A stretch of 64,000 nt of DNA from a bacterium (GTDB lineage: Bacteria; Bdellovibrionota; Bacteriovoracia; Bacteriovoracales; Bacteriovoracaceae): assembly GCA_030425045.1 (NCBI GenBank), contig JAUHVL010000003.1, forward strand, positions 62,001 through 126,000. Direction: 5' to 3'. Made by a program: the position numbers and the translations under genes. Each line of letters begins with the position of its first letter. The first letter of the stretch is position 1. Positions 39,457 through 63,208 of the stretch are shown piece by piece. The notes under the pieces are model-generated. The model had not been told where the DNA came from and did not search any database. It saw only the letters and a list, made by a program, of their open reading frames with translations.

Positions 39457-39954
39457 TCGTGAAAAAGTAAATGGGGTGGATCTCACCATTTTTCAAGTGA
39501 AAACTACCGCCAGCCGTATCTGGTTAATATTATTGAATATACTATCACTCCGAAGTATCTAGATAAAGAGTTTTTACACCAAAAATACATCGTTGAAAGG
39601 CTTTCTTGCGAGGAGATTTCTAAGCAAATTCCTACCGCCAGAAGGACGACAGTCTTAAAGTATCTCAAGCTTCATGGGATACCAGTAAGGAAACCTGGCA
39701 CTAATACAAATCGAAAGCGAGGACTTTCTTATGGTGCAAGGTGTATAAAAAGAGAGGAGGTTCAGCATAAGCGTGAGTTAGAGAACATCAAGAGGATGAG
39801 AGAGCTTCGGGACAAGGGTTTTTCTTACTGGAAAATTGCTGATGTCTTAAATTCGATGAAGATTCCAACGAAGACTGGTCGTGGAAAGTGGCATGCTAAG
39901 ACTATTCAGCAGATTTTAAATTTAAAATTAAGCAATATGTGTCATAATGAATAA
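39457..39954 (+). pseudogene. start-less second copy of the recombinase C-terminal-like HTH gene
   Basis: A reading frame of about 165 codons between a TGA at 39454 and a TAA at 39952-39954 aligns along its whole length with the protein at 30425-30913: KWGG near the start, then HQKYIVERLSCEEISKQ, TARRTTVLKYLKLHGIPVR, NRKRGLSYG, MRELRDKGFSYWKIADVLN and GKWHAKTIQQILN. It has no ATG, GTG or TTG in frame until Met codons far downstream, so it looks decayed or 5'-truncated. One residue is inserted in the HTH. With the intact copy it brackets the 31-39 kb segment. Confidence 0.65.
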
Positions 39955-39971
39955 AAAAGAGAAGTTTTGTT

Positions 39972-40280
39972 ATGAACAAGCCATGGATTATAGATTCAAT
40001 GCCCAGTATTTTGTGGAAACAAGGTGCGTTATTATTTTTAGATTCTCTAGATGATGACAGTAGAGACAAGGTTTTTAGTGAACTAAAAAACCTAAATGAC
40101 CTTGGGTTAAAAGATTTTCCTCACCACAAGTTAAGAAAGTTAAAAACTCGTCAGAGACACTATGTTTTGAAAGTGAATTTTATTCGCGTCCTTTTTGAGC
40201 TGTGTGAATCTAATGAAATATTAATCCACGATATTATCAAGAAGAAATCAGCTCGTCCTCCAAAAGGATGGGGTCAATGA
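39972..40280 (+). CDS. HigB/Gp49-like small protein (RelE fold)
   Basis: This encodes 102 residues. HHKLRKLKTRQRHYVLKVNF, IRVLFELCESNEILIHDIIK and KKSARPP resemble the core of phage Gp49/HigB toxins (LR-x-K-x-x-x..YR-x-x-F, then ..HGF-x-KK). No antitoxin of the usual HTH type follows; instead the Shedu-like gene starts within its stop codon (ATGA at 40277-40280). It may be a toxin-like nuclease partner or a regulator of the Shedu-like protein; this is inference. Confidence 0.65.
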   Translation: MNKPWIIDSMPSILWKQGALLFLDSLDDDSRDKVFSELKNLNDLGLKDFPHHKLRKLKTRQRHYVLKVNFIRVLFELCESNEILIHDIIKKKSARPPKGWGQ

Positions 40281-40924
40281 TTAATCCAAACTATATATTC
40301 GACAGAGATGAGCTAAAGAAAGAGCTTGATGAGTTTGGAACCCTTCTTAAGGACAACACAAGCCTTAAAGAGAGAGATGATATATTAAAGTTTTTCTCTG
40401 AAAGGAATCATCTCTCAGCCTTTATTGGTAGATGTAATGGGAAGATAGATAGAATAGATTATGTAAAGAGAGAGTTCTCTTTGTTTCGTAAGTATATACC
40501 AGACCTAGTTGTCGGACAGATAGATAAAGCGCAATACACTTTTGTTGAGTTTGAAGATGCATCTGAAAATAGCATTTTTACGTCACCAACTAATTCTGGC
40601 AAAACAAGCTGGGCTCCAAGGTTTGGTGCGGGGATAGGTCAGCTTTCTGATTGGATGATGGAGATTGACTCGCAGAAAAATCAAAAATCTTTCCATACTG
40701 AGTTTGGTGCACACGAGATAGACATTGAGTTAATGCTAGTAATAGGGCGGGAGCAGTTCTTCATTGATGATCAACTGGATAGAATAAAATGCTTCAGTAG
40801 GAGTGTTAAGATTTATGGAAAAAACCTCAGCGTATATACTTTTGACTCTTTGTTTGAGGCATTGAGTACAAAGTTTGAAACAAACTGGGGCGAATTAGCA
40901 GATGAGATCAATGAAGATGAATAG
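40277..40924 (+). CDS. Shedu-like DUF4263 nuclease-type protein
   Basis: This encodes 215 residues from the ATG at 40277, placed by the ATGA overlap and an AAAGGA site. The C-terminal half looks like DUF4263/SduA: LSAFIGR, REFSLFRKYIPDLVVG (Asp76), YTFVEFEDAS (Glu91, Glu93) and APRFGAGIGQLSDW. This is the layout of a PD-(D/E)xK nuclease, but the usual Glu-x-Lys reads Glu-x-Glu. Shedu proteins cleave DNA in anti-phage defence; here activity may be altered. The paired HigB-like gene is unusual. Confidence 0.7.
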   Translation: MINPNYIFDRDELKKELDEFGTLLKDNTSLKERDDILKFFSERNHLSAFIGRCNGKIDRIDYVKREFSLFRKYIPDLVVGQIDKAQYTFVEFEDASENSIFTSPTNSGKTSWAPRFGAGIGQLSDWMMEIDSQKNQKSFHTEFGAHEIDIELMLVIGREQFFIDDQLDRIKCFSRSVKIYGKNLSVYTFDSLFEALSTKFETNWGELADEINEDE

Positions 40925-40928
40925 TACT

Positions 40929-43136
40929 TTAGTACATCATCATGTCATAGTGTGCCTTATGGTTTGTTCGATAAAAGATTTCCTTAAAAACATTCATGTA
41001 TTGGTCAATGACTTCAGGTCCTTCTGTGATGTATAAATCATCATGAGCAAAGTGTGAACCATCATTGACCCATGACAATAGCGACTTACACATAAATTGT
41101 TCTTTACCGGTAAATGAGAGATGAAGATCTTCAAGCTTCATGTTACCCATTATCTTGAAATAATTTTCAAGGATCCTTCTTAAGATGTTCTGAATCGTTA
41201 GAGGGCACTTGTCTTCTGACTTTGCTTGTTGCCATAAAAGTTCGTACGATGTTTTGATGGGGTTATGATTATAACCCTCTACTTTAGTCTCATCATTCAG
41301 CTTTCTTATAATCCAAAAAGTCTCCTCGTTCATAGAGCTACCACTTCTCTTTTGGCTAAAGGTAACTTCTTTGTGAAAATATATATTGTGTGTAAGGATA
41401 AAGACCTGTTTTGTTACTCCAATGTTGTTGCGAACCTCGTCAATCGTCTGTCTTATCAAGCTGCTTACAATAAAAAGTATGTTGCTATCAAGACTTGAGA
41501 TAGGATCGTCGTAAACAACAACGCGATCAGATGAGATTTGCCCCTCTTCTTCACTGTTGCTGCCTTTGAGTAAGTGATGGAAATATAGAAAAGTAATAAA
41601 AGTCTTTTCACCCTCACTTAGTGTGTGGCCAACGTCACTTCCATCTTGGCGTACAATCTTGTAGTGAAGAGGTTCACTAGACTCTTCAAGTTTGAAGCCA
41701 TTAAAACCATAAGATGTTAATATTGAATTGATTTCAGTGATAGTAGGCTTAATACTTGTAACATCTTTCTCAAGTTCCTTGATTTTTGAGCTGATAACTC
41801 TTTGCTTGTCCTTGGACTCAGTTATTTTTTCTTGTAGATTCTTAATTGCTGTCTCGAGAGCAGCTTTTTTATTATTAAAGTTTTCGAGTTCTAACTTTAA
41901 TTCATCAAACACTATATATTTCCACACTTCTTTTTTTAGATTCTGGTTTTCAGTACTGAAGTTGTTTACAGTTGAATTGTGCTCATCAATTTTTTTGTTG
42001 GTAGAGTCGATTAGGTCGTAAACATCATCAAGTAAGGATTTTGTCGAATCAAGCTCAATAACTCTACTTGGCTCTGATAGCTTTTCTTTAAGTCTGGCGA
42101 GGTTTGTTGATGACTTGGCTTTGAAAAGCTCTAGTTTACCTGAGAGCTCACTGGTATTTAGTAAAGGGGTTGCGTTTGCGATGATTTGCTCGATACTAGA
42201 TGAAATTGCAGTAGCCTTTAATTCATAACTTGATTCAGTTTGCTTCAGTTGAGTAATTTCGGACTCATAAGCTTCATCGAAAAATGAATTTAATTGTTCA
42301 GTTAAGTTTTGTTCTACACTCTGCTGGCAAAATGGACAGGTTGTGCCACTGTTTGACTCCAAGTGAACTTTTCCCTCTTTTACCCAGTCACTTATTCCTA
42401 GATGCTTAATCATTTTAGCAATGTCTACGTCGGAATTTCCGATGATTTTCTTTTTAAGTATTTGCGACAGTTCAAGATTTGATATTTCAGAGTCTCTTAA
42501 CAGTCTAATTTTTTCATATAAAACAGGTCTTTCTCCAAATAGGGTTTCTGCACTCTTAAGAAGGTCTTCAAGAGACCTGAGAGTTGTAGTATTTGATTGT
42601 TCTGCTAAAACCTTCGCAAAGAATGATTCTTTTCTGTTTCTAACACCTTGGAAAGCATCCTGAAATGCATCATCGTGTTTGGTTTTAACTTCCCAGCATT
42701 TTAGAGTGAATTCATTTACTAAGTTTGTAAGCTCCTGTTGCTTCCCTGTTTCATCGCTATCATTATCTCCATGCAAGGTTTTTGAAAATTTGCCTTCTTT
42801 TTCCTTTTCGCGTTCCTCCTCAATTTTAAGAAGTTCAATTTTTTCTAGGATTTCGGCATTCTTTTCTCCAAGAGTGAATATTCCTTTTATTTCTTCTGAC
42901 TGAGAAAAGTTTTTTTCAACGAAGTCAGAATTGTATACAAATGTCTGTAGTGGCTGATTATTCTTCCAGGAAATTGAGAAGTTTTCACCTGAATTGTTTT
43001 CAGAAATAACTCTAGAGATCGTTGTTTTTCCACTTCCATTTGCACCATAAAAGTAATTAAACTGAGAAAGTGGACCTAGAGACTGCTCCTCATCAGGGTA
43101 AGTGGCAATAGTTTTTACTGTTAGTTTATCTATCAT
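40929..43136 (-). CDS. AAA_13-type ATPase with coiled coil and CxxC hook
   Basis: This encodes 735 residues. FYGANGSGKTTIS (31-40) is Walker A. A long helical region (~95-500) carries CPFC at 267-270, a zinc-hook-like CxxC as in RloC/Rad50. The ABC-type signature LSEGEKTF follows at ~505, with Walker B VVVYDDPISSLDSN at ~540 and THNIYF at ~580. The C-terminal ~130 residues contain ILRRILENYF and WVNDGSHF, common in this family. It is the last gene of a three-gene operon, starting 2 bases after the DUF2779 stop. RloC-type anticodon-nuclease activity is possible, but its motif is not certain here. Confidence 0.85.
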   Translation of the reverse strand: MIDKLTVKTIATYPDEEQSLGPLSQFNYFYGANGSGKTTISRVISENNSGENFSISWKNNQPLQTFVYNSDFVEKNFSQSEEIKGIFTLGEKNAEILEKIELLKIEEEREKEKEGKFSKTLHGDNDSDETGKQQELTNLVNEFTLKCWEVKTKHDDAFQDAFQGVRNRKESFFAKVLAEQSNTTTLRSLEDLLKSAETLFGERPVLYEKIRLLRDSEISNLELSQILKKKIIGNSDVDIAKMIKHLGISDWVKEGKVHLESNSGTTCPFCQQSVEQNLTEQLNSFFDEAYESEITQLKQTESSYELKATAISSSIEQIIANATPLLNTSELSGKLELFKAKSSTNLARLKEKLSEPSRVIELDSTKSLLDDVYDLIDSTNKKIDEHNSTVNNFSTENQNLKKEVWKYIVFDELKLELENFNNKKAALETAIKNLQEKITESKDKQRVISSKIKELEKDVTSIKPTITEINSILTSYGFNGFKLEESSEPLHYKIVRQDGSDVGHTLSEGEKTFITFLYFHHLLKGSNSEEEGQISSDRVVVYDDPISSLDSNILFIVSSLIRQTIDEVRNNIGVTKQVFILTHNIYFHKEVTFSQKRSGSSMNEETFWIIRKLNDETKVEGYNHNPIKTSYELLWQQAKSEDKCPLTIQNILRRILENYFKIMGNMKLEDLHLSFTGKEQFMCKSLLSWVNDGSHFAHDDLYITEGPEVIDQYMNVFKEIFYRTNHKAHYDMMMY

Positions 43137-43138
43137 AG

Positions 43139-45139
43139 TTAAGCAGCTTCTTTCTCCATTTGAGTTCTAATTAGGTTGTTCCAGTGTTCCCAAATCATTA
43201 CCATTGCAAAGGTGTCTAGTTCACAATATCTAAGGAGGGCTGATTTTACTTTCTCTCGCTCTCGGTCTGACATGTGAGTGAATTGCATCATTGCGTAAGC
43301 TGTAAGAGCAGCACCTCCATTCGCGATATCATCATCACTCATAACCAATTCAAGTTGCTCGAAATCCCATTTGTCGAATACCGGTGGAAGTGTTTCATAT
43401 GGGTTGATGACAGTTCCGTCGCTGTTAAGAGATATCCATTTGTGAGAATCAAAGTTTTTCGATTTAATTTCACAGTTTTTGCCATAGATTTCTTTAGAGT
43501 ATTTATCTTGAATGAATTTTGATTCGTTTAAAATTGCAGGAAGTACATACTTTATTGAATTTGAACCTTTAGTATACGGAGAATAGTAAAACCTCTTGAC
43601 CATTTCACAAAGGTCAATCATGTTTCTTTCACCCTTCCAGAGAATATTTTTACCGTTCTTTTTATTTGTTACGGTCTCAATAAAATTGACCAGCTCATCT
43701 TTATCTTCGATGTCAGATTCAAGGATTTGTTCTCTAATCTGACAAAGTACAGTGTTTTCATGGTTGGAGTATCTAAAAATTGAACCTTTTGTACCGAGTG
43801 CTTTTTTTAGTTCTCTAACAAACTCAAAATTAGGGTGAAACCCCTGAGTGGCATTGATGTACTCGTTTGCATGCTCTATCGACCCATCTTCATGAATCAT
43901 ATGATGACTAAATTGAAATGCAATTTGTTCATAGGGGCGCTGTCCTTTGTTGAATGGAATGGCCACCATACATGTCTCGAAATCAATCATGTGAAGAGGA
44001 AATTCCCAAGTAGACATTTCTTGCTGTAATCCGAACAGGTCTAAAAAAGGAGAGTTATCATCATCTTTAACTTTCTCTACTTGTAATACTTGTCTTTCAC
44101 CATTTGATAGCCCATCACTGTTTTTTCTAGGAGTTGCTTTAAAATCTTCAATATCTAGATCTTCAAGAAGAAGCTTTCCATTATCAAGTGCTTTTTGAGA
44201 ACCTCTAAAGTTCCAAACATCAAATACAAATGGCTTGCTCAGTTCTTCTTCAGAGAGACCATGTTCTAATTTCCAACATTCATTGAATCCGCAAATCTTA
44301 CCTTCTTCTATTGTTCTAAACTCACAAGACTTACATTTTGAGCTTACTGGAGCAACTAGTTTAGTGTCTGAGTTTAAGGCATCTGCAAAGTGCCAGATTG
44401 CTTCCTCAAATGTTTTTCCGTCAAACCTTTCACTCATCTCTTCATAGTTGTGAATAATATCTACGACATCATCAACAGGTAATTTACATAGAATTTGCTC
44501 ACCAAGAGCTTCTGCTGATACATTACCTTCTATAATAGCTCCACCTCTTCCATTGTCATCAACTAGAACAAACTTTTGATTGAGACCGTCGACAGTGGCA
44601 GTAACAGATTTATCAGCACACATTAAAAAATTGTTTACCTCATAGCCAGGAAAAGCTTTTTGAAGAACGAATGATTGAAAAGCAACATCGTATAAGTAAG
44701 GTTTCCATGTAGCCTTTAGACTATGAACACCTCTTTTTAATTCTCTTGAATTCCAAAGTTCATCTTCAAATTCATCCGGGTGTGCAGATTTAGACTTAAC
44801 TTCAATTAGATTAAATGTATTGCCAATCTTTTCAAGAACATCAATTCTAATAAAAAGATTCCTATATTTAATAGCTGCTTCAAATATAACGACATTCTCT
44901 TGTTCAAGGAGCTTCATCGTTTTCTCATGAGAGGTATCATAATCAAGCTCAGTAATATCATGACCACCTGGGTAATAGCATTTTGCTAATTCTCCGACTT
45001 GAAAGCCACCTTTAGCTAATGCCTCTAGGAATGGGTCATCTAGTTTAGCATTGGCATACTCTTTTTTACGTTCTGAGTAGTAGAGTTTAGTTGGGCACTC
45101 TAAAGCAGTTTTGAATTTTGATTTAGTTAAATATTTCAT
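43139..45139 (-). CDS. DUF2779 protein: Cas4-like nuclease fused to DEDD-type exonuclease
   Basis: This encodes 666 residues from 45139, with AGAGG ahead. Residues 1-290 look Cas4/RecB-like: ALECPTKLYY (Cys15), FIRIDVLEK with NLIEVKSKS (Asp100, Glu113, Lys115), and a Cys set CKSC/C/C at 269, 272, 283 and 288 able to bind a 4Fe-4S cluster with Cys15. Residues ~380-650 carry an RNase H-like DEDD pattern: MIDFETC (Asp386, Glu388) and YCELDT (Asp642) near the end. A dual-nuclease fusion is inferred. It lies 7 bases after the Z1 gene and 2 bases before the AAA_13 ATPase gene. The protein ends in Glu-Ala-Ala. Confidence 0.8.
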   Translation of the reverse strand: MKYLTKSKFKTALECPTKLYYSERKKEYANAKLDDPFLEALAKGGFQVGELAKCYYPGGHDITELDYDTSHEKTMKLLEQENVVIFEAAIKYRNLFIRIDVLEKIGNTFNLIEVKSKSAHPDEFEDELWNSRELKRGVHSLKATWKPYLYDVAFQSFVLQKAFPGYEVNNFLMCADKSVTATVDGLNQKFVLVDDNGRGGAIIEGNVSAEALGEQILCKLPVDDVVDIIHNYEEMSERFDGKTFEEAIWHFADALNSDTKLVAPVSSKCKSCEFRTIEEGKICGFNECWKLEHGLSEEELSKPFVFDVWNFRGSQKALDNGKLLLEDLDIEDFKATPRKNSDGLSNGERQVLQVEKVKDDDNSPFLDLFGLQQEMSTWEFPLHMIDFETCMVAIPFNKGQRPYEQIAFQFSHHMIHEDGSIEHANEYINATQGFHPNFEFVRELKKALGTKGSIFRYSNHENTVLCQIREQILESDIEDKDELVNFIETVTNKKNGKNILWKGERNMIDLCEMVKRFYYSPYTKGSNSIKYVLPAILNESKFIQDKYSKEIYGKNCEIKSKNFDSHKWISLNSDGTVINPYETLPPVFDKWDFEQLELVMSDDDIANGGAALTAYAMMQFTHMSDREREKVKSALLRYCELDTFAMVMIWEHWNNLIRTQMEKEAA

Positions 45140-45146
45140 AAAGCCT

Positions 45147-47738
45147 CTATATCGTTGCGTTAACAACGTATTTCTCATTTCCAAATTCTTTGTTGTCAGG
45201 GAAAACAATCATGATTCCAAACTGAACATTCTTACACTTAATTGGTTTTAAGTGATAAACCCCACCAGTTCTTTCTTTAGATTTACTGTTGTTTGTTAAT
45301 GGGTAAATAGCGAGTAGTGCTCTATCTTTTGGTCTTTGATTCATTCTTATCTTTGCAGTTCCAATTCTTCTGCCATCTGCATCTTTCAGAACATCAGTAA
45401 TGTTGTCTGATTCAAATAAGTCTCTTAAATCAACCATCTCATCTTTTGGGAGGTATAGACCCCTTAGATAAGATGCATCTTCATCTGCTGGCTTGTGAAC
45501 ATCTGGAACGAATGAACGATCTAGAAGCAGAACCTTGTCACCATTCTTGAACTGATACTCATCACCATCTTTGATTAGTGAAAAGATAGAGACAGACCAA
45601 TCAGTTAAATTTTGATTATTTGTTATGTACTCAACGAGATCCTTCTTATTAGCAAGTGTGTTTGCATCACTGATAAAATATTCATCAAGAAATTGTAGGA
45701 TGATCTCTTTTTCAATTCCTCTATAAGTATGAGAAGTCCTGAACATTGAGAAGCTTTGCTCTTGTCTTTTTACACCATCTTCTTTGATTTTAAGAAGAAG
45801 GTTCTCTACAGCATTGATATTTTGCTTAGCTGTTCCTGAATCATTAAGTCTAATGAAATCGGGTAGTGCTCTTCTCCCTGAGAAAGAATTGGCTTCGGTG
45901 CTAGCTGCTCGCATTTTGTTAGCAGCAGTTAATTTCATTCCAGGATGCTGTCGAACTCTAATCCTAAAATCCATCGGAGTATCACCATTCTCAGCCATGA
46001 CGGAAAGTTCCTCTCGAACTGCTATTTCTGATGTAGCCATTTCATAGAAGTGATCTCTTAATTGATCAGTAATGTAGATTCTTTTTAGGTCTAAATAACC
46101 AGGTCTGTATCCAAACCAACGGCCCATTTGCATTAGTGAGTCATACATTTTGCTATTTCTAATGAAATAACTCATTGTTAAACCTTCAATTGTTAGTCCT
46201 CTGGATAAAGTGTTTCCCCCAACTACGATACCTTTGAAGTTTTCTTCAAATGTTAGCCTTTCATCAGAAGCAGAGTTATCTAGAATAATTTGAAATTGCT
46301 CTAATAGAAGCTTTATATTCCTAAAAAGGTCATGTTCACTGATATGATTGATTTCTCCAGTTATGTCTTTTGTTGTTGGGTCAAATTCTTCTTCTTTTAT
46401 TTTTATGAGTCTATCTTTAGCTTCTGTAATCTCTCTTCGAAGGTCAGACTTTAAAAGCCCAACATGATCTTCGATAAGTTCATGAACCTTTGCTTGATCT
46501 TTAGTTAAATAAGAGCCGTGAACTAGCATTGAAATATGTTTATCGTGATGTCCTCTAGATATCCTTATTGCTCCTGCCACTATAAAGCAATCAATGGCAT
46601 GTTCGAGAGAAGGAGGTAATGAGTCGTACTCCTTTTCTTGACCTCGTTTTGAAGCTGAAATTTGAGCTGCGTCCATTGCGTCAATGGTTCTTACTAGTGG
46701 ATAACCTGTACTTATATTTCCTTCAGTGTCTTGTGCTCCAAATAGCTCTTCAGCTCCGATATATGAAATTGGTTTAGATAGAGAAACAATAAAATCCTTA
46801 GGGAATAAGTCTTCTTCGATACTTGAGTCAATTAAGATGTTCGCAAAAGGGGTAGCTGTATATCCAGCATAAGAACAAGATGGAAAGTGAGAAATGATAT
46901 TTCTAATCTGCTTGTTTATTGCTGTTTGCTTTTCTTCTGGCTTTTTGGAAGTATTTATACTTGCTTGATCTGATTCATCATCAATGATCAGAACTGATGT
47001 ATCATTGAGAATTTCTGGTTTAGCCTTTGATAGCCATGTATTGAACTTTCTAAGAACAGTGGCATTTTTTTTCAATACAGCAATACCAAAACCCTCCTTG
47101 CTGCCGAGAACTCTGTTGGCTGACTGGGTTAGCTTCTCGCTAAAATCACCTTTCTCATCCATTCTTGTTATTGGGTCAGCTTTTAATTCACTTGGTTTTA
47201 CTATTTCATCTCTTAGTCTGACTTCTGTTTGATAACGTAAATTGTTATGAATACCAGCAAGGACAATTACAAATTTATAACCAGCATCTAGGGCTTTTGA
47301 GATTACAGCAGAATAGTTAGCCGTCTTTCCACTTTGTACATAACCAAGAACTAGTCCCTTAATTTGGTTTTTTTCGTCTTTATTAAATTTAATCTGAGGG
47401 TTTGCTAATTTGGAAACCACATTGTTTGAGCTATGGTTTAAGCTTTCAACCATTTCTGGTGACCAGGCCTTCTTGGCTAGAAGTATGGACTTTAGTTTGC
47501 TCCAGTGTGAGTTTTCTGACTCATTTGGTCCACCATACCATTCTTCAAGTTTTCTGTTTTTTCCAACTAGAGAATCTTCTTTATTTTCCTGATTAAATTC
47601 ATCGAGATATTTTTGAAGGACATTGTCGATTACTGTATCTGAAACCTCGTTATTTCGAAGCTCAGCCCTAATTTCTGCTATATTTTTTCCAGCGTTGAAG
47701 CCGTTTTTTATTACTAAATAAACAAGTTTGTCTGACAT
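45147..47738 (-). CDS. Z1-domain P-loop ATPase/helicase-like protein
   Basis: This encodes 863 residues. Walker A GYVQSGKT is at 132-139, the DExx-like box IIDDESDQAS at 251-260, motif III-like AGYTATPFAN at ~291-300, motif V GGNTLSRGLTIEGL at 507-520, and motif VI QMGRWFGYR at 537-545. This is the Z1 family, known from restriction-modification and conflict loci beside methylases. It should couple ATP hydrolysis to DNA handling. It is first of the Z1-DUF2779-AAA_13 operon and divergent from the cold-shock-like gene at 47921. Full catalytic motifs suggest an active enzyme. Confidence 0.9.
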   Translation of the reverse strand: MSDKLVYLVIKNGFNAGKNIAEIRAELRNNEVSDTVIDNVLQKYLDEFNQENKEDSLVGKNRKLEEWYGGPNESENSHWSKLKSILLAKKAWSPEMVESLNHSSNNVVSKLANPQIKFNKDEKNQIKGLVLGYVQSGKTANYSAVISKALDAGYKFVIVLAGIHNNLRYQTEVRLRDEIVKPSELKADPITRMDEKGDFSEKLTQSANRVLGSKEGFGIAVLKKNATVLRKFNTWLSKAKPEILNDTSVLIIDDESDQASINTSKKPEEKQTAINKQIRNIISHFPSCSYAGYTATPFANILIDSSIEEDLFPKDFIVSLSKPISYIGAEELFGAQDTEGNISTGYPLVRTIDAMDAAQISASKRGQEKEYDSLPPSLEHAIDCFIVAGAIRISRGHHDKHISMLVHGSYLTKDQAKVHELIEDHVGLLKSDLRREITEAKDRLIKIKEEEFDPTTKDITGEINHISEHDLFRNIKLLLEQFQIILDNSASDERLTFEENFKGIVVGGNTLSRGLTIEGLTMSYFIRNSKMYDSLMQMGRWFGYRPGYLDLKRIYITDQLRDHFYEMATSEIAVREELSVMAENGDTPMDFRIRVRQHPGMKLTAANKMRAASTEANSFSGRRALPDFIRLNDSGTAKQNINAVENLLLKIKEDGVKRQEQSFSMFRTSHTYRGIEKEIILQFLDEYFISDANTLANKKDLVEYITNNQNLTDWSVSIFSLIKDGDEYQFKNGDKVLLLDRSFVPDVHKPADEDASYLRGLYLPKDEMVDLRDLFESDNITDVLKDADGRRIGTAKIRMNQRPKDRALLAIYPLTNNSKSKERTGGVYHLKPIKCKNVQFGIMIVFPDNKEFGNEKYVVNATI

Positions 47739-47920: not shown

Positions 47921-48175
47921 ATGTCTGGTTACAGAAAGGGTATCGTACATTGGTTTGATGTAAATGCAGGAGAAGGTGCGATTATTGATAAAGAAGATGG
48001 AATGTCATACTACGTTCATTATTCTGCAATTGATACAAGAGACAAGTTTAAAGTACTTGATAAAGGACAAGAGGTTGAATACTTGCTTTATGAAAATTTG
48101 TATATGAAGCAAGTAGACGTAGTTAAGCCAATAAAGAAAAGAAGAAGAAAAAGTAAAGCTGAAGTTAGAGCTTAG
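47921..48175 (+). CDS. cold-shock-domain-like small protein
   Basis: This encodes 84 residues with a cold-shock-like OB-fold: KGIVHWFDVNAGEGAIIDK resembles the KG.VKWFN..KGFGFI segment, and YYVHYSAID the FVH.S.I segment. A very basic KKRRRKSKAE tail follows. It should bind single-stranded RNA or DNA. It has TTAAGGAG ahead and is 31 bases before the type IIG gene, and divergent from the Z1 gene. It may act as a regulator or accessory factor for the restriction operon. Confidence 0.75.
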   Translation: MSGYRKGIVHWFDVNAGEGAIIDKEDGMSYYVHYSAIDTRDKFKVLDKGQEVEYLLYENLYMKQVDVVKPIKKRRRKSKAEVRA

Positions 48176-48206
48176 AATATAAAAATTTATCGAGAGGAGG
48201 GACAGG

Positions 48207-51200
48207 ATGTCCCGAAGTACAAAGAAAAAAGCCAGTGAGCAGGAAGCGCAGCCACAACTAATATTTGATGCTAAAAGTGATATAAATCCTTATTGGAGGT
48301 CCTCTCTTTTTAGTGATGTTTACTTAAGAAACGATGTTCCCAGAGAGTATCGACATCTGTGGGATAACGATGAAATTGGTGACTTCTACAATTTTTATCA
48401 GGGCTTTCTTGATCTATGCAACGATACAGAACATGAGTGCTTCGACAAATGGAGAGAGGCCGATACGGTTAAAAACTGGATTGTTCCAGTAATGGAATTA
48501 CTTGGCTGGGAAAATAACTCAGAGAGAAGGCAAAATTCCTACATGGACAATGAGTCTTTTACAGTTGATGAAAATGGAAAAAAACAAACCTACAGACCTG
48601 ATTTGATTTATTTTGATAAGCCCAAGCATAAGTCATATACACAGAAAGAAAAAGATATTCACAAAAAATTAGCAGAAGCTCGTAATGTTAGAACGGGTGC
48701 CAAGGTTATCGTTGAAGCAAAGTATTGGAACAGATTAGCTTCTTCAGACAAAGTTAGGGTTGAAAAAAGCAATGCTGACTCTGCGAGCTCTCTTGGTCCT
48801 GAATTGCAAACCTTGAAATACATTGAATTATTTCAGCATGACTTCGGAATTTTAACTGATGGAAAAACGTGGAGACTTTTTCATAGAGAGCTCTCCCAGG
48901 GAATGGAGCGTAGAAGCTTTGACTTCGATATCGGTAAGCTTAAGGATCTAGCATTAAGTATTGATAGGCATGGGAATGAAGAGACTTTCTTGCATTATGC
49001 GAAGTACTTTTATTACATTTTTAGTAAAAAATCGCTAGTAGAAAGTGAAGATTCAAAAACAGCACCTTTTGTGTATGAGATTTTTGAATATAGCAAAAAG
49101 TATGCTCATTCAATTGAAGATGATCTGAAGAAGAGGTTCATAATATCTATGGGAGTTATTTGTAATTCTTTAAGAAAGTCTTGTGAAGAGCAGGGGGAAG
49201 AATTCGATTCAGAGTTGGTGAGAAATGTAGCCGAAAGTCATTTGTTTAACATTCTATTTGTAAAGTCTTGTGAAGTTAGGCGAGTGTTACCAATTAGTTC
49301 AACTCAATATTTGAGAAAATCCTTACATGAAGTCGTGGAAACAATGGATGCAATGGGGTTTGATCCTGATAAAGAGTGGGATGAATTCTTAAGAGATTTC
49401 AGATTCACCTTGGGCAAAAAGTTCGATTGGGATGGTTATGAAATATTTAATAGATTTATAAATCTGTACGAGATCGTCCATGATGGAACGGCAAAGTCGA
49501 AAGATTTTGGGTTTGAGATTTCAGGGTTTAAAGAATCCGTTTTTAGTAAGAATGAATGGAGGTTCGCAAAGAATCATAAGATTAGCAACAGAGATATGAT
49601 TGAAGTTCTTTTTGACTTGAACTTTATTGAGTCCGCTTTTAAGGGACGAAAATATCAGCAAATACCATATAGCTACTTCTCTCCAAGGCAGTTGGGTTCT
49701 ATTTACGAAAGTTTTCTTGAGTACAGATTAGAGACGGCAGATCATGACATGGTTTTCCATAAAGGCCGCTGGAGTAAGGCAAATTTAAAGTCCGGAAAAG
49801 TCAAGTCTCTTAAGTTAGTTGATTGCCATATTGTAAAAAGAGGAGAGGTGTTTTTCTCGCCAGATAATAAGGACAGAAAAATGACCGGGAGCTATTATAC
49901 TCCTGATTATATTGTTCAGTATATTGTAGATAAAACGCTTGGAGTTGTCGCAAAAGATATGACAAGTGAGGAGCTATTTGATCTGAAGATTTGTGATCCT
50001 GCAATGGGGTCTGGGCATTTTTTAGCAGGGGCATTGAGCTATTTGCAATCTATATACTTAGAGAAGTGGTCTGCTGAAAACTATGATGACTATGAAGGCG
50101 ATATTGTAGAAATCACAAATAAATTTATTGAAAAAAATCTGTATGGAATTGATTTAAATCCAAGAGCTGTGAAGTTAGCAAAGATGAGTATTTGGTTAAG
50201 TAGTGCTCACAAAGGTCGGAAACTTTGCGACTTATCCCAAAAGTTTGTTGCAGCTAATACATTAAAACAAAAAACATTCTCCAATACTAAGTTTGATGTT
50301 GTTATTGGTAACCCTCCATATCTGGATTATCGCGACATTGATACTGAAACTGCGAATGTCTCAAAATCGTTTGATTCATTTGTGCCAGGTTTAAGGCCAA
50401 ATCTTTATGTTCCATTCGTTGAATATGGTATTAAGATCTTAAAGGATGATGGGTATATAGGTTACATCTTTCCTATTCACTGGTGTGTTTCCGATAGCTC
50501 AAGAATGTTAAGGGAATATGTTCTCAACAGTTCTGAAATTAAAGCAATCGATGACATAAGCAGTGTGAATGTTTTCAAAGATGCTGGAACTTATCCTTCG
50601 ATACTGATAGCGGAACGAGTCGCCGAGCCGAGGGGCAATTACAGCTATAGTACAAAAAATATTTTAGATGAAAATCTGAACATCGAAGAGCATTCTGTTG
50701 AAGTAGAAAGTGTTCTAAAGGACGAGGGGCGGAAATTTCTTGTCGGTGACAATGTGTCATATTTACCAGTAATGAATAAGCTTGATAAATGTGAGGACTC
50801 CATTGAGTCATACGCTCAAACTTTTAAATGGGGTACCAGTAAGACAGGCTACGGGAAAATGAAAATCAAAAAAGCTGACTATGCGGCTTTAGGTGTTAGA
50901 AAGAAAAAAGAATACCGAAAAATTATCCAAACATCAGACATAAAAAGAATGGATCTACAATGGAATGGTGAATACATCCCTGTCGAGATTTATAGTAAGT
51001 CTGTAATGCAAGACTTTGAAGAACCTAAGTTGACGATTGCTAGGGTAACGAAAGGTGTGCAAGCAGTTGTAGATAGTGATGCTCACTTCATGGGGAAGGC
51101 GTCTTATATTTTAAATGAAGATGTTAAAACATTAAAGGCATTGTGTGTGGTGTTGAATTCTAGCATCGTTGATTTTTGGTTTCGACAGAAGTTTCAAAGT

Positions 51201-51440
51201 TTGCACATGGCAGGAGGATATATTAGGTACGATATACCATACTTGAAACAAATCCCTTTGCCTTGTGGTTTTAAAAATATGATAGGGAAGCTTTCTAAGG
51301 CATATGATTCGAATTATGGCTCAAAGTTTAAACAAGAAAAGATAGATGATCTAGTTTCGGACCTTTATGGCTTGAATAAGACTGACGTAAGAATGATACA
51401 GGATTATCTGAACCCAGAAAAAGATAAGAAAGTGGCTTGA
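48207..51440 (+). CDS. type IIG restriction-modification enzyme (Eco57I-like)
   Basis: This encodes 1077 residues. The N-terminal nuclease shows RPDLIYF (Asp132) and KVIVEAKYW (Glu170, Lys172), followed by the LQTLKYIELFQ segment of the fold. The N6-adenine methylase core has motif I DPAMGSGHF (597-605) and motif IV GNPPYLDYRD (NPPY 702-705). The C-terminal ~350 residues resemble a target-recognition domain (LTIARVTKGVQ, HMAGGYIRYDIPYLKQIPLP). It should both cut and methylate DNA. Its stop is one base from the McrB-like gene, so it is in one operon with the McrBC-like pair. The start follows GAGGAGGG. Confidence 0.9.
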   Translation: MSRSTKKKASEQEAQPQLIFDAKSDINPYWRSSLFSDVYLRNDVPREYRHLWDNDEIGDFYNFYQGFLDLCNDTEHECFDKWREADTVKNWIVPVMELLGWENNSERRQNSYMDNESFTVDENGKKQTYRPDLIYFDKPKHKSYTQKEKDIHKKLAEARNVRTGAKVIVEAKYWNRLASSDKVRVEKSNADSASSLGPELQTLKYIELFQHDFGILTDGKTWRLFHRELSQGMERRSFDFDIGKLKDLALSIDRHGNEETFLHYAKYFYYIFSKKSLVESEDSKTAPFVYEIFEYSKKYAHSIEDDLKKRFIISMGVICNSLRKSCEEQGEEFDSELVRNVAESHLFNILFVKSCEVRRVLPISSTQYLRKSLHEVVETMDAMGFDPDKEWDEFLRDFRFTLGKKFDWDGYEIFNRFINLYEIVHDGTAKSKDFGFEISGFKESVFSKNEWRFAKNHKISNRDMIEVLFDLNFIESAFKGRKYQQIPYSYFSPRQLGSIYESFLEYRLETADHDMVFHKGRWSKANLKSGKVKSLKLVDCHIVKRGEVFFSPDNKDRKMTGSYYTPDYIVQYIVDKTLGVVAKDMTSEELFDLKICDPAMGSGHFLAGALSYLQSIYLEKWSAENYDDYEGDIVEITNKFIEKNLYGIDLNPRAVKLAKMSIWLSSAHKGRKLCDLSQKFVAANTLKQKTFSNTKFDVVIGNPPYLDYRDIDTETANVSKSFDSFVPGLRPNLYVPFVEYGIKILKDDGYIGYIFPIHWCVSDSSRMLREYVLNSSEIKAIDDISSVNVFKDAGTYPSILIAERVAEPRGNYSYSTKNILDENLNIEEHSVEVESVLKDEGRKFLVGDNVSYLPVMNKLDKCEDSIESYAQTFKWGTSKTGYGKMKIKKADYAALGVRKKKEYRKIIQTSDIKRMDLQWNGEYIPVEIYSKSVMQDFEEPKLTIARVTKGVQAVVDSDAHFMGKASYILNEDVKTLKALCVVLNSSIVDFWFRQKFQSLHMAGGYIRYDIPYLKQIPLPCGFKNMIGKLSKAYDSNYGSKFKQEKIDDLVSDLYGLNKTDVRMIQDYLNPEKDKKVA

Positions 51441-51441
51441 T

Positions 51442-53190
51442 ATGAAAAAAGAAGAGATTGAAAAATTAACAGCCTTAGTTGATGACTTGTATGACAATGG
51501 AGAACTTGGATATGGTTCCAATTCTTATTCGGACTACTTCCCACAATCAGATGAGGTGGTAGGTAAGTTTTTTAATTACTATCTTCAGTTCTTATTTGAC
51601 ACGACATCACAGAAAGACAGGAAGAGATGGAATCCGATCAAAAAACATATTTTTTCAGAGGGGAAACTGTTTTATATTGATCCTTCAAAAGTCGTAGCTG
51701 ATCCCAGTAATATTAAAAACGCTATATCCTTTAAAAAGTTTAAAGATGAGTTTGTTAGATTAGGCTCTTGTCTTGTAAAGAAATACAACTTAGAGGGTGT
51801 TGACTTTAGTTCTGGTGATGCAAAGAAGGAGCTATTAAAGGTAATAAAGAAAAATAAAAAACTTGATGGTAACGATCGAGCAGATGATTTCTACTGTACA
51901 AAAGTTTTAACGTTGCTGAATTCTGAATTGCTAGATCTTGATGTTGACTTTAATGTCGAACAAATCATGAAGAATGGTCATGATATGAAGTTATGCGTTT
52001 ATTATGGACCTCCTGGCACAGGAAAAACAACAGTTGCTAAAGAAGAGCACTTGAAAAAAGTTGGTAAAGAAAATAGCCAGATTGTCCAAATCCATCCTTC
52101 TTACTCATATGAAGATTTCGTAGAGGGAATTCGTCCTATAACTTTCTTTGATGGTGAAATTAAGTATGAAGTAGTGGATGGTCCAGTTAAGATTCTTGCA
52201 AAAAAAGCAAGTTTTTCGAACGAAAGTCGAAGCATGCATCGTCCCTTACATTTATTGTGTTGTATAGATGAAGAGGGAACATTACATTTTCCTCTGGGAA
52301 CTAGAGAAAGATATGGATTAGCTCAAATATTTGTATCTAGTAATTACTCTGATATGGAAGAAAGTCTAGAACCGCTTGAGCTTAATTCAGATTTTATTCT
52401 TGAGTATGCTGATAAGTCAGAGAAAAAACGATTTCTCAAAATGTATGTGTGGGATAAATCCTGGTTGGAAAAAAAAGATTATGTTCTGATTATAGATGAG
52501 CTAAATCGAGGCAATGTTGCATCAATTCTTGGCGAATTAGTTTTTTCTTTAAGTGAGGTTCATGCTGAAGAAAAAAAACCTGTTAGATTACAGTATAGTG
52601 GGGAAGAGTTTTATTGGCCGACAAATTTAAGCTTTATTGGAACAATGAATACTGCTGATACCAGTACAGATAAAATAGATCAAGCGATTAAGAGACGGTT
52701 TGAATTTATTTCGGTTGACCCTCTAGAATCTGAAGCAGAGTGGTCGAATCTGGCACTTAACATTCTTGAAGGAGGTACTATAGTGGATTTCTTCAAGGGC
52801 AGTGATGTTCGCGACCAGTATTACCCTTGGAATATTCTTTCATTGTTAAACAATAAGTTGCGAGAAAAAGGTGCAAGATATGGCGCAATTGCTGTTCGAG
52901 AGAAACTTATTGGGCATTCTTTTTTCATAAAGTATACCAGACAGCTAGCATCTTTATTAAAAGATAACACTAGTGCCAATATAAATGAAGCTTGTGCTCG
53001 CCTTCTTAAAGAATTGTTTGAATCAGAAGTTGAACCCAGTTTACTCAATATATTTAATAATAATTTTGATATGTTAGAGAAATTTAAATCAGAAGAGCTT
53101 TCCAGAAAGGAATTCCCATTTTTTTATGATGTAGATTCAATAGATGACACTCCCCTTGTCGATCATAAAAGTACTGGAACAGATGGCTGA
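51442..53190 (+). CDS. mcrB: McrB-like AAA+ motor
   Basis: This encodes 582 residues. Residues 1-185 are a variable N-terminal domain, probably the DNA-reading part. The AAA+ module has Walker A GPPGTGKT (189-196), Walker B LIIDELNRG (349-357), sensor MNTADTS (402-408) and arginines at 418-419. These are McrB hallmarks; McrB uses GTP. About 80 residues between ~260 and ~340 appear inserted relative to the short family core. It starts one base after the IIG gene and is followed 2 bases later by the McrC-like gene. Together they form a restriction motor-nuclease. Confidence 0.9.
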   Translation: MKKEEIEKLTALVDDLYDNGELGYGSNSYSDYFPQSDEVVGKFFNYYLQFLFDTTSQKDRKRWNPIKKHIFSEGKLFYIDPSKVVADPSNIKNAISFKKFKDEFVRLGSCLVKKYNLEGVDFSSGDAKKELLKVIKKNKKLDGNDRADDFYCTKVLTLLNSELLDLDVDFNVEQIMKNGHDMKLCVYYGPPGTGKTTVAKEEHLKKVGKENSQIVQIHPSYSYEDFVEGIRPITFFDGEIKYEVVDGPVKILAKKASFSNESRSMHRPLHLLCCIDEEGTLHFPLGTRERYGLAQIFVSSNYSDMEESLEPLELNSDFILEYADKSEKKRFLKMYVWDKSWLEKKDYVLIIDELNRGNVASILGELVFSLSEVHAEEKKPVRLQYSGEEFYWPTNLSFIGTMNTADTSTDKIDQAIKRRFEFISVDPLESEAEWSNLALNILEGGTIVDFFKGSDVRDQYYPWNILSLLNNKLREKGARYGAIAVREKLIGHSFFIKYTRQLASLLKDNTSANINEACARLLKELFESEVEPSLLNIFNNNFDMLEKFKSEELSRKEFPFFYDVDSIDDTPLVDHKSTGTDG

Positions 53191-53192
53191 AG

Positions 53193-54890
53193 ATGAAAAG
53201 TCTGAACTCTATCAAAAAGCTAGTACCTAACTCTACTGAATGGTTTGGATATTATCACTGCAAAGAAGATAATAGAGTTAAAACGCTTAAATCAAAAAGT
53301 TTCGAAAAGTTATTATGTGATGAACGTGATTTGAGATGTGTGTATTTGGGGCTTTTCGAAATAATGAGTGGTGATGGGAATTATGATTATTTTAAAAATA
53401 ATGTTGTTAAAATAAGTGGCGAAGTTCCTCTCGTCAAAGTACAGGATAATGTCTTAGATACATATGTCTTTATTGTTCTTAAGACATTGTATGAAAAAAT
53501 CATAAGTGAGAGGCCATTTTTTTACACGAAAGAGATAAATTACACTTCCAAGATAAAAGGTAGTATTAATTTTGGTCGAACTATTTCTAAAAACTTTGGT
53601 CTAAAGCATAAAGTTGTTACGGAGAGCTTTGAGCTTAAGTATAACGATCCATTTCTTTCATTGTTGAGATTTTATTATCGTTTTTTTGATTCCGTTTTAA
53701 AAAAATCTATGACTTTATCAATTAGTTTAAAAGATGAGCTTAGCATGATGACCTCTCATGTTGATAGCTATTTTTCAGAATGTGAAGAGCTGGGAGATTA
53801 TTCAAAGTCATCTATGGGGGTTATTTCTGGAGTATTAGGCAATTCTAATTTTAAGTTAAGGGCTCTTGTTCCTGAAATGAAAGTTTTAGCGAATCTTTAT
53901 CTTGTTAACAATCTCTTTTTTAACAAAGATCTTGAGTCTTCAGAGCTATACACTGATGGGCTAGTGTTTAACCTAAACCGTCCATTTGAGCTTCTTTTAA
54001 GAAGGGCATGTTCAACTTTCTTAGAAGAGAATGGAAATAAATTCGTTCATAAAAATCAAAAGGAATTCTCTGCCCTAGTTGATGAACAAAATGCAGTAAA
54101 ACTTCAGATGAAGCCCGATTGTTGGTTTTATGTGAATAGTGTTGAAGTAATACTGGATGCCAAACATAAAGTGTTTGAGGAACAGTTAATTAGCAATGAG
54201 GGAATTGATTATGAACAAAAAAAAATTGATCGAAATGACCTATATCAAATAATGTCATACTGTTCTACAAGTCCAGAAGATAGCAAAATTCAAGATAAGA
54301 TTGTCGGGTTAGTAGGGTTAAGTGAAGAGTCACAAGAAGATGGTGCTGATTATGTTCAAAGCTCAATGAAGTGGACAGTTTCAGGTCACAAAGATTTCCC
54401 TCCGGTTAATATAGTTTCGATGAACTTTGGTCGTTTTATGCTAGACCTGGGAAGACAAATTGATCGCACGGATTTAGATGTAGTTAGTAATCCAACATAT
54501 GAAAGTATATTTTATTCCTTGGGCAAAAGCATTAATGAGCATTTAAAGATCGTAGAAAATAATGAATTAATCAAATTATATGATAGCTTCTTTGACTATG
54601 TTGTTAATGACTGTGTGGACGATGAAGTGAGAGAGATATATCAGTTAGATATAGAATCAGATGGATTTTTTAGATTTTTAAAGTTTTACAATAAGCTTGT
54701 GCTTAAGAAAACTAATAGAGCGATTAACTTGTCACCTGGTATGTTCAAAGATGAAGAAAAGTCTCAGTTTGTTGCTCTATTAAAGAAAGATCTAAATGAC
54801 TTCTTAAATGATGATGAGGATTATGAGGATTTTTCTAGTACGCAGTACTTGAGTTCATTAAGTCTCATCGCACATACCGGTGCTGCTTAA
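53193..54890 (+). CDS. mcrC: McrC-like nuclease subunit
   Basis: This encodes 565 residues. PFFYTKEINYTSKIKGSINF is the family's N-terminal region. The PD-(D/E)xK site is FELLLR (Glu266), then KPDCWFY (Asp309) and VILDAKHK (Asp322, Lys324), as in McrC. It should be the cleaving subunit driven by the McrB-like motor encoded just upstream. The C-terminal ~150 residues are longer than in the E. coli protein. It ends in Gly-Ala-Ala, one of several Ala-Ala tails in the island. The 3' end overlaps the convergent ASCH gene by 4 bases. Confidence 0.88.
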   Translation: MKSLNSIKKLVPNSTEWFGYYHCKEDNRVKTLKSKSFEKLLCDERDLRCVYLGLFEIMSGDGNYDYFKNNVVKISGEVPLVKVQDNVLDTYVFIVLKTLYEKIISERPFFYTKEINYTSKIKGSINFGRTISKNFGLKHKVVTESFELKYNDPFLSLLRFYYRFFDSVLKKSMTLSISLKDELSMMTSHVDSYFSECEELGDYSKSSMGVISGVLGNSNFKLRALVPEMKVLANLYLVNNLFFNKDLESSELYTDGLVFNLNRPFELLLRRACSTFLEENGNKFVHKNQKEFSALVDEQNAVKLQMKPDCWFYVNSVEVILDAKHKVFEEQLISNEGIDYEQKKIDRNDLYQIMSYCSTSPEDSKIQDKIVGLVGLSEESQEDGADYVQSSMKWTVSGHKDFPPVNIVSMNFGRFMLDLGRQIDRTDLDVVSNPTYESIFYSLGKSINEHLKIVENNELIKLYDSFFDYVVNDCVDDEVREIYQLDIESDGFFRFLKFYNKLVLKKTNRAINLSPGMFKDEEKSQFVALLKKDLNDFLNDDEDYEDFSSTQYLSSLSLIAHTGAA

Positions 54891-55270
54891 ATTTGAATAT
54901 CCTTTGTAAAGACAATGCCTTTCCTTGATGGAGCAGGTATGCTATTTTTAAAGACTTTCTTCACTTTTACATGCCAGCCCCATTTAGACTTTTCAGTCCA
55001 TGCCCAATCTGAATTCTTGTCAACAAGGTGTTTGTCTTTATCTTTGTAGAATGCAGTTTTATTCTTATATGGAACGGATTTTGTAAAAATGATAACCGCT
55101 GTGATTCTTGCCTTGAATTTCCCCTTTTTGCCTGGAGTTTCAATCAGAAGCATCTCTTGATTTAAATATTTTTCTGGAAGATCGTATGTTCGAGTTTCAA
55201 TAGTTTTTTTTCCAGATGTTATTTCTGCAGAAATAGGCCATTGAATGTTAATTCCAGTATATTTTTTCAT
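54887..55270 (-). CDS. ASCH-domain protein
   Basis: This encodes 127 residues of the PUA-like ASCH fold: INIQWPISAEITSGKKTIET near the start, then RTYDLPEKY and GKFKARITAVIIF. ASCH domains bind RNA or modified nucleosides; some are amidohydrolases. Its start overlaps the radical SAM gene stop by 4 bases (ATGA), so it is translationally coupled with it. A nucleic-acid-base-related role with the radical SAM enzyme is inferred. The gene is convergent with the McrC-like gene. Confidence 0.8.
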   Translation of the reverse strand: MKKYTGINIQWPISAEITSGKKTIETRTYDLPEKYLNQEMLLIETPGKKGKFKARITAVIIFTKSVPYKNKTAFYKDKDKHLVDKNSDWAWTEKSKWGWHVKVKKVFKNSIPAPSRKGIVFTKDIQI

Positions 55271-56679
55271 AATGTTGAGTCAGTTGTATCGACTCTAAAT
55301 GTTCCATTTTCAAACTTTATTGGTTTTGAAACCTCTAGATCTCTGTGAAGTGATTCTTTATCATTTGGAACTAAACATTTGTGAGAAGTATGTTTCATCC
55401 TTGTCTCCCATGGGATTGATCTCGAATCATCTTGGAATGCTTGGACTCTACCTTTTACATTGCAACAGTCAGTTTTATTGCTCCATAAGTCTTGATCTGA
55501 CCAAAACTGTTTCTCTCCATTGCCAATATAGCAGGTTGTGAATTGTATTCCATTTTGTAAACACTTAGCGTGTATTCTTTCATAGTAAGCTCTTATTTCT
55601 TTATCGCTATAGTGAAAATCTCTAGACTTTTTTTCTGTAAAGTGAGCGTTCTTTTTATTTTTGTAATTATAAAATATTTTTAGATCTCTACCGACAGCTT
55701 TTTCTATTTGATTTAGTGAATAACTAGATAGTCTAACAACGCCTGCTAGAATAGATTGGACACCATAGCTCGCAATCTCATCTATCATTTCGAAAGAAGA
55801 GTAATCAAATGGTTCTGGCATATTTTCTCTGTCAAATTCAGGATCTGTGTAGTAGCCATCTGGATACATTGGAAAAAAAGGATTAATTCGGACAGTTGTC
55901 CAAAATCCATTTCTAGCGAGCTTTTGTAATGCTTTTAGTCGTCTTTTAGCATTTGGAGCACCAGGTTCAATAAGTTTATTCATCTTATCATTGGTTGATG
56001 GAATACTCATTTGTACAGAGCAAAGATCTGGATTTAAAAGGCTTAGATAATCATCGTGTGCTACTAAATCAGACCTTGTGAAAATTATATAAGGATAGTC
56101 ATAGTGGTCTAATATTTTAAGTAGCTCTTGCGTTACTTTATATTTTTTGTCCATCAGCATAAAAGAATCTGACATTGAACCAATTCGAAACGGGATTCTT
56201 TTTTCCATTACATCTCGCCACTTTGACCTCCTGTCTGTCTCGAAGACGGTATAAAAGATTTTCCAAATTTGTGTTATATCTACCGGCATCGGAAAGGGCC
56301 TATTCCATGATCCATGAACTGTAAGTTGTGCTTTGGCATAACAGTAAACACAGTCATGAACGCAACCTCTGCCATATGTATCTATTTCGAAGGCATATAG
56401 GCACTGCTGGCAAGTAGTGTGACTGTTTACTAGTCTTACAGGAGATTTAAAAACGATGCCTCCTCGCGGTTGCTCCAGTCCAAATCTTAATTCAAGGTCT
56501 CTATATACACTGAAATCGAATTTACACTTATACTTCGATAGCTTTGCTAACTTATCTGCTTCTTTAAAAATCTTGTCCGACTGAGGAGTTGGAATGTTCT
56601 CAATATTTTTGCTCGTATCCGCATTTGGAAACGAAATAATATTCTCTTGTAGTTGGCTAAATACTTCTGTTTTTTCCAT
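55267..56679 (-). CDS. radical SAM protein, spore-photoproduct-lyase-like (SPL family)
   Basis: This encodes 470 residues. A Cys pair (TTCQQC, Cys90 and Cys93) precedes the radical SAM cluster GRGCVHDCVYCYAKAQ (Cys106, Cys110, Cys113). The RIGSMSDSFM, IFTRSDLVAHDDYL and VQMSIPSTN segments match the SPL-type family, related to spore photoproduct lyase, which repairs thymine dimers. A later Cys-rich region (TCYIGNGEKQF, DCCNVKG) is present. It could modify or repair DNA or a nucleotide. It is flanked by RHH and ASCH genes with base-overlap junctions, forming one operon. Confidence 0.85.
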   Translation of the reverse strand: MEKTEVFSQLQENIISFPNADTSKNIENIPTPQSDKIFKEADKLAKLSKYKCKFDFSVYRDLELRFGLEQPRGGIVFKSPVRLVNSHTTCQQCLYAFEIDTYGRGCVHDCVYCYAKAQLTVHGSWNRPFPMPVDITQIWKIFYTVFETDRRSKWRDVMEKRIPFRIGSMSDSFMLMDKKYKVTQELLKILDHYDYPYIIFTRSDLVAHDDYLSLLNPDLCSVQMSIPSTNDKMNKLIEPGAPNAKRRLKALQKLARNGFWTTVRINPFFPMYPDGYYTDPEFDRENMPEPFDYSSFEMIDEIASYGVQSILAGVVRLSSYSLNQIEKAVGRDLKIFYNYKNKKNAHFTEKKSRDFHYSDKEIRAYYERIHAKCLQNGIQFTTCYIGNGEKQFWSDQDLWSNKTDCCNVKGRVQAFQDDSRSIPWETRMKHTSHKCLVPNDKESLHRDLEVSKPIKFENGTFRVDTTDSTL

Positions 56680-63164: not shown

Positions 63165-63208
63165 CCCCGCGAAGCGGGGACCCCTCCTTGAGGAGGTTGG
63201 GAGGTGAT
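63165..63208 (+). promoter_or_regulatory. leader hairpins that may mask the recombinase ribosome site
   Basis: CCCCGC-GAA-GCGGGG (63165-63179) forms one hairpin. Then CCCTCC (63182-63187) can pair either with GGAGG at 63192-63196 or perfectly with the Shine-Dalgarno GGGAGG (63199-63204). A switch in pairing would open or close the recombinase start. Role inferred from base pairing only. Confidence 0.4.

Follow-up and report, generated by a model that had tools for sequence, protein, structure and literature searches.

Recurrent pairing of Z1 ATPase and DUF2779 nuclease genes at probable restriction-type defence loci of Bdellovibrionota

Genes for a Z1-domain ATPase and a DUF2779 nuclease form a real, recurrent pair in Bdellovibrionota. 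In the window (the whole 64,000-nucleotide stretch of DNA analysed here, whose host is a member of the Bacteriovoracales) the pair is followed on the minus strand by an AAA_13 gene. On balance, we favour the reading that these three genes are one arm of a larger, part-swapping restriction-type defence locus carried on a ∼36-kb island at tRNA-His, with Z1 and DUF2779 acting alongside a type IIG/McrBC core and the AAA_13 protein, which resembles RloC, as an add-on. Defence loci often contain Z1 ATPases, which are known mainly in the company of cytosine methylases, MutL-like ATPases and AIPR.

Three adjoining genes on the minus strand

Open reading frame coordinates place the genes for Z1, DUF2779 and AAA_13 at 40929-47738, all on the minus strand and separated by gaps of 7 and 2 bases, as the sequence-only reading had described. 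Their Pfam assignments are not chance matches, given E values of 4e-67 (Z1), 2e-25 (DUF2779) and 3e-174 (AAA_13). The first gene of the operon (45147-47738, minus strand) encodes an 863-residue SF2-type ATPase in which all of the helicase-like motifs claimed earlier are present and intact (GYVQSGKT at 132, DDE at 253, YTATP at 293 and GGNTLSRG at 507). Its nearest relative is the Z1 protein of genome G033 (53% identity), its close relatives including those of BWSM_117 in the Bacteriovoracales (L071, same contig as G033) and UBA4573 in the Bacteriovoracaceae (L072, that is, G218). A scan of viral contigs with Z1 alone, which was too narrow a scan, returned one match at 33%, and among 141 genomes searched in the order of G301 only G301 itself held a Z1 of the window's clade.

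The second gene (43139-45139, minus strand, counted from an ATG, since a TTG start would overlap Z1) encodes 666 residues that join a Cas4/RecB-like PD-(D/E)XK domain with four conserved cysteines to a DEDD exonuclease domain, an architecture that was proposed beforehand and is borne out by the conservation of its residues. Across 19 homologues, Asp100, Glu113 and Lys115 are invariant together with Cys15, Cys269, Cys272 and Cys288, which is the D...ExK and four-cysteine pattern of Cas4/RecB-like nucleases; IDFE at 385-388 is likewise invariant in 19 homologues, and the C-terminal YxxxD (638-642) is at least 90% conserved. The structure model is of low confidence (pLDDT 65) and its fold matches, to MGME1/Cas4 and to ERI2/3'hExo, are weak. 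The order of a Cas4-like and then a DEDD domain is that of the DUF2779/COG2251 DUF83-RNase H nucleases (PMC3985635), from which the window protein differs in that its partner ATPase is a separate gene, Z1. No match was found when viral contigs were scanned with DUF2779 alone, again too narrow a scan. Elsewhere, genome G067 carries two DUF2779 genes one after the other (L049:1172-6324), and in UBA4573 a GIY-YIG and RAMA domain protein lies immediately behind DUF2779 (L072:863-1558, minus strand).

Z1 recurs with DUF2779, and AAA_13 joins them only in the window

Within the class (129 genomes), DUF2779 was found in 24 genomes, Z1 in 4 and AAA_13 in 4; only the window copy among the 24 genomes with DUF2779 lies near Z1, and the trio occurs together in the window only. 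Among the best 80 Z1 loci genome-wide, AAA_13 was present at none and DUF2779 only at L072, nearly all the others having a C5 methylase, which is what Mza-like systems would lead one to expect. A search of the phylum (291 genomes) found Z1 beside DUF2779 in G301, G136 and G218, overturning an early view, formed on class data only, of DUF2779 as merely unrelated cargo; AAA_13 was absent from these other Z1-DUF2779 loci. With AAA_13 at 0/80 Z1 loci and the trio seen only in the window, the three-gene unit of the sequence-only reading is therefore refuted, and its boundaries were also wrong, the constant partners lying outside 40929-47738. What stands of that reading is the defence-type nature of the locus and the association of Z1 with DUF2779, seen at 3/8 other Z1 loci. 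The one strand and the tight gaps speak for a dedicated system in which AAA_13 would be an integral signalling or cutting subunit; however, the combination was seen once, AAA_13 occurs at no other Z1 locus examined, neither Z1 nor DUF2779 was found within 8 kb of 78 AAA_13 homologues on viral contigs (0/78), and by analogy with the RloC family AAA_13 may be self-sufficient. Co-occurrence having largely refuted it already, we regard such a system as highly improbable.

Uniform placement in the 291 phylum genomes would put 0.015 of the eight other Z1 loci within 10 kb of DUF2779, against the three observed. On the same uniform placement, a radical SAM gene discussed below lies within 10 kb of DUF2779 in 9/26 cases (0.05 expected) and Z1 within 10 kb of the radical SAM gene in 3/8 (0.005 expected), although all of these figures overstate functional linkage because defence genes cluster in islands regardless.

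Constant partners in a divergent operon and a radical SAM pair

Two further sets of genes, both overlooked in the sequence-only reading, are linked to the trio: a divergent operon at 47921-54890 and a pair of genes at 54887-56679. The operon opens with a small cold-shock-domain protein (47921-48175, plus strand; Pfam CSD 5e-10) directly upstream of a type IIG gene, a place that the cold-shock gene keeps in L044, L072/L282, L280, L283, L183, L184, L186 and L331. The type IIG gene (48207-51440, plus strand; Eco57I 7e-29, TaqI_C 3e-9) looks like a restriction-methylase fusion, since its predicted product carries an N-terminal PD...EAK nuclease motif, the NPPY of an Eco57I-type N6 methylase and a TaqI_C domain. 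At the sequence level it thus combines the nuclease, N6 methylase and target-recognition domain of type IIG enzymes in one chain, and D...EAK and NPP(Y/W) are conserved in 8/8 homologues compared. Two genes on the same strand follow, encoding a McrB-like AAA_5 ATPase (51442-53190; Pfam AAA_5 3e-13; NCBIfam McrB 8e-27, below cut-off) and a McrC-like protein (53193-54890; Pfam McrBC PF10117 4e-13); Pfam thereby recognizes the McrBC order of an AAA_5 McrB and then a McrC-family nuclease, the NCBIfam equivalog cut-offs not being reached.

The pair consists of a small ASCH-like protein (54887-55270, minus strand), a predicted reader of modified bases or nucleic acids, and a radical SAM protein resembling PA0069 and spore photoproduct lyase (55267-56679, minus strand; Pfam Radical_SAM 1e-8, CxxxCxxC at 106). 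The ASCH label is weak (E=0.011 in the window; Pfam ASCH matched by 7/10 family members, 0.0016 at best; 10% probability in profile comparison). The two genes are adjacent in 30/30 loci compared across Bdellovibrionota. Loci with the pair include, besides the window, L188, L325, L330, L334, L336, L338 and L340, and neighbours of the pair are type IIG-like, McrBC, Druantia DruE-like and type III-like genes. The defence libraries searched hold no name for the pair; a search of plasmids for the radical SAM subfamily gave no match, and viral contigs yielded distant relatives only, at 20-29%.

Five Z1 loci of the window's clade, from four families of one phylum, were compared: the window and G033 (both f1), G218 (L072/L282; f20), G301 (f6) and G136 (f9). 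In this small sample (n=5) the cold-shock and type IIG genes are present at 5/5 loci and the ASCH-like and radical SAM genes at 4/4 of those with an uncut contig; DUF2779 is found at 4/5, once as a divergent short form (G136), McrBC at 2/4 and AAA_13 at 1/5, in the window only. By conservation, then, the core is Z1, cold-shock, type IIG, ASCH-like and radical SAM, with DUF2779 usually and McrBC sometimes. Gene order varies among the loci. G301 has Z1, DUF2779, McrB and McrC in one operon with the radical SAM, ASCH-like, type IIG and cold-shock genes adjoining; G136 has short DUF2779, Z1, cold-shock and type IIG before the contig ends; and G218 has the whole set except McrBC and AAA_13. G033, which is without DUF2779, repeats the divergent cold-shock and type IIG genes and the convergent ASCH-like/radical SAM genes of the window. 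Downstream of its Z1, the place of DUF2779 and AAA_13 is taken by a 440-residue protein (L044:7112-8434, minus strand; NCBIfam MsyB-like 1e-6). Identities of Z1, of the methylase and of the radical SAM protein all give the same pairing, the window with G033 and G218 with G301, which is consistent with the three having been inherited jointly.

These data bear on a rival explanation, in which Z1/type IIG, DUF2779, McrBC and the RloC-like, Shedu-like and cytosine methylase genes are independent defence cargo stacked by accretion at a hotspot, and not one machine. DUF2779 indeed sits beside HsdM, a Mod-type methylase, OLD ATPase, HerA, AAA_11/12 helicases and a reverse transcriptase at other loci, and occurs on plasmids away from Z1. 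The closest relative of the window copy (76% identity), in G035, adjoins AbiE-like genes and has no Z1 nearby, for which reason the window DUF2779 may have been recruited separately from Z1. Homologues of AAA_13 occur alone, and the island also bears SduA and a C5 methylase. Against this, the five core genes named above recur jointly across families with matching divergence, and the same Z1-DUF2779 order appears again in G301. We consider independent cargo a real but less probable account than the part-swapping locus.

A further alternative makes McrBC the partner of DUF2779, with a DUF2779-McrB-McrC nuclease module and a chance adjacency to Z1 in the window. The window does include McrBC genes, and DUF2779, McrB and McrC stand in line at L055 and L280, and at L199 and L200 with one gene between. 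However, the window McrBC is on the opposite strand, behind the methylase, and G218 has DUF2779 and Z1 but no McrBC, so that we think this module a distinctly improbable explanation of the locus. The succession of DUF2779, McrB and McrC at loci lacking Z1 (L055:3478-10059; L199:7989-14350; L200) is in its own right a second recurring setting of DUF2779. McrBC also adjoins the methylase in G089 (L189) and lies beside the ASCH-like/radical SAM pair in G014 (L187).

AAA_13 as a predicted RloC-type add-on

The third minus-strand gene (40929-43136; 735 residues) is best read, at the level of motifs, as an RloC-type predicted anticodon nuclease that is accessory to the locus. The CxxC hook expected of it is CPFC at 267-270, flanked by helices on either side and with both cysteines kept in 71/71 sequences. 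Its ABC/Rad50-like ATPase motifs (Walker A Lys37, LSEGE at 506-510, Asp543/Asp544 and His583) are invariant or nearly so. At the C-terminus lies a catalytic triad of RloC/PrrC type that had been overlooked, R653-X3-E657-X37-S694-H695, which is invariant in 9 homologues and in the wider set retains Arg in 68/71, Glu in 63/71 and His in 50/71 sequences. The published RloC motif is Arg-X3-Glu-X36-52-His with a CX2C hook (PMC2610378). The predicted structure (pLDDT 84.8) has an all-helical C-terminus and Rad50 heads as its best Foldseek matches; these matches cover the Rad50-like part without singling out the predicted HEPN domain, and among solved structures no sequence relative was found. The best match in the defence libraries is the PADLOC candidate PDC-S06 (900 bits). 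Elsewhere the homologues are stand-alone cargo, most of them near restriction-modification systems; 5/7 of those on plasmids adjoin type I, ISP or Eco57I-type systems. It is the fit of triad and hook, the restriction-modification neighbours and the distance of homologues from Z1 and DUF2779 that point to an add-on, so that the earlier suggestion that this protein 'signals or cuts' can be sharpened to predicted tRNA cleavage, its place as an integral subunit being given up.

Comparison with known systems

The window locus resembles known Z1 systems in combining a Z1 SF2-type ATPase, a nuclease and a DNA methylase. One of these is the MzaABCDE system, which Gao and colleagues reportedly described in 2020; unlike it, the window Z1 has, by Pfam, no MutL/MORC ATPase, DUF4420-type nuclease or AIPR gene among its neighbours. 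Membership of Mza was rejected, the partner genes being missing and Z1 scoring 427 bits against an NCBIfam MzaC cut-off of 1500. The other is the grouping of Z1 with a PD-(D/E)XK nuclease and a cytosine methylase (Iyer 2008, PMC2292703; PMC9523054), from which the window differs in having an N6 type IIG enzyme as the recurrent methylase partner of Z1 and DUF2779 as the nuclease; the window also has a C5 methylase, 9 kb from Z1. The idea of Z1, nuclease and methylase is thus a known one, the different methylase and nuclease being the new part.

The type IIG protein shares its single chain of PD-ExK, N6 methylase and TaqI_C with Eco57I-like type IIG enzymes and with PglX of BREX. Unlike BREX, the locus is without PglZ, BrxC and BrxL and pairs its methylase with cold-shock, ASCH-like and radical SAM genes. 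BREX was rejected as a candidate, with PglX at 116 bits against a cut-off of 500 and no other BREX gene match nearby. As in McrBC systems, AAA_5 and McrC-family genes are adjacent, but their context ties them to the type IIG operon or to DUF2779. AAA_13 shares with RloC and PrrC (PMC2610378, PMC3874168, PMC3710099) the Rad50-like ATPase, a coiled-coil CX2C hook, the C-terminal R-X3-E-Xn-SH and linkage to restriction-modification, and differs from them in lying in an operon behind Z1-DUF2779, with tRNA cleavage predicted only. Neither PADLOC nor NCBIfam names the combination of genes at the Z1 loci, and the earlier statement was that no named system is known to have the set of Z1, DUF2779 and AAA_13.

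A proposed mechanism

For the part-swapping locus, we propose that the type IIG enzyme would mark self DNA and cut or flag foreign DNA. Z1 may translocate or remodel the flagged DNA and pass its ends to DUF2779, where both strands could be degraded by the Cas4/RecB-like domain and the DEDD exonuclease domain. McrBC would deal with modified phage DNA, and the ASCH-like and radical SAM proteins might read or alter modified bases, the roles given to these two being guesses. Given that linear DNA or DNA breaks switch RloC on (PMC3874168), the AAA_13 protein could be a break-triggered backup that senses DNA ends and cuts tRNA, stopping translation if restriction fails.

A bolder proposal, which we rate as improbable, is a new class of restriction-type immunity in Bdellovibrionota in which the radical SAM and ASCH-like proteins would install, edit or read an unusual base mark that licenses type IIG, with Z1-DUF2779, McrBC or a Druantia-like DruE as the exchangeable effector against DNA lacking the right mark. 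As a companion of restriction systems in predatory-type bacteria, the pair calls for an explanation. A Z1 clade accompanied by an N6 type IIG enzyme, a dual nuclease and this pair presents Z1 as a reusable module and offers a compact set for probing Z1 function, and the RloC-like reading of AAA_13 replaces a vague guess with a direct prediction of tRNA cleavage.

The mobile island and its other cargo

The whole gene set is held on an island of ∼35.8 kb at tRNA-His, running from 39464 to 64000 in the window and on to L192:11293, which the sequence-only reading had missed. A 16-bp direct repeat (AAAGTAAATGGGGTGG) at 39464-39479 marks its probable left end; the right copy (L192:11278-11293) overlaps tRNA-His (11286-11361) and has beside it a large serine recombinase of 514 residues (L192:9753-11297). 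A second recombinase, of the Resolvase family, is encoded at 63188-63808. Just inside the left end, a remnant reading frame (39530-39955, plus strand) resembles by eye the C-terminal part of a serine recombinase.

Right behind AAA_13 lies a Shedu-like SduA gene, also missed earlier (40268-40924, plus strand; PADLOC 3e-52), overlapped by a 102-residue open reading frame (39972-40280, plus strand) that by eye is similar to RelE/HigB-type toxins. The island also encodes a C5 cytosine methylase (56991-58034, minus strand), which may be either an orphan or an additional partner; it is 9 kb from the window Z1, and none is found near the Z1 genes of L044, L072 and L280. Also on the island, an open reading frame at L192:6408-8240 (minus strand) has a C-terminal part that by eye resembles phage Gp37/Gp68 (DUF5131).
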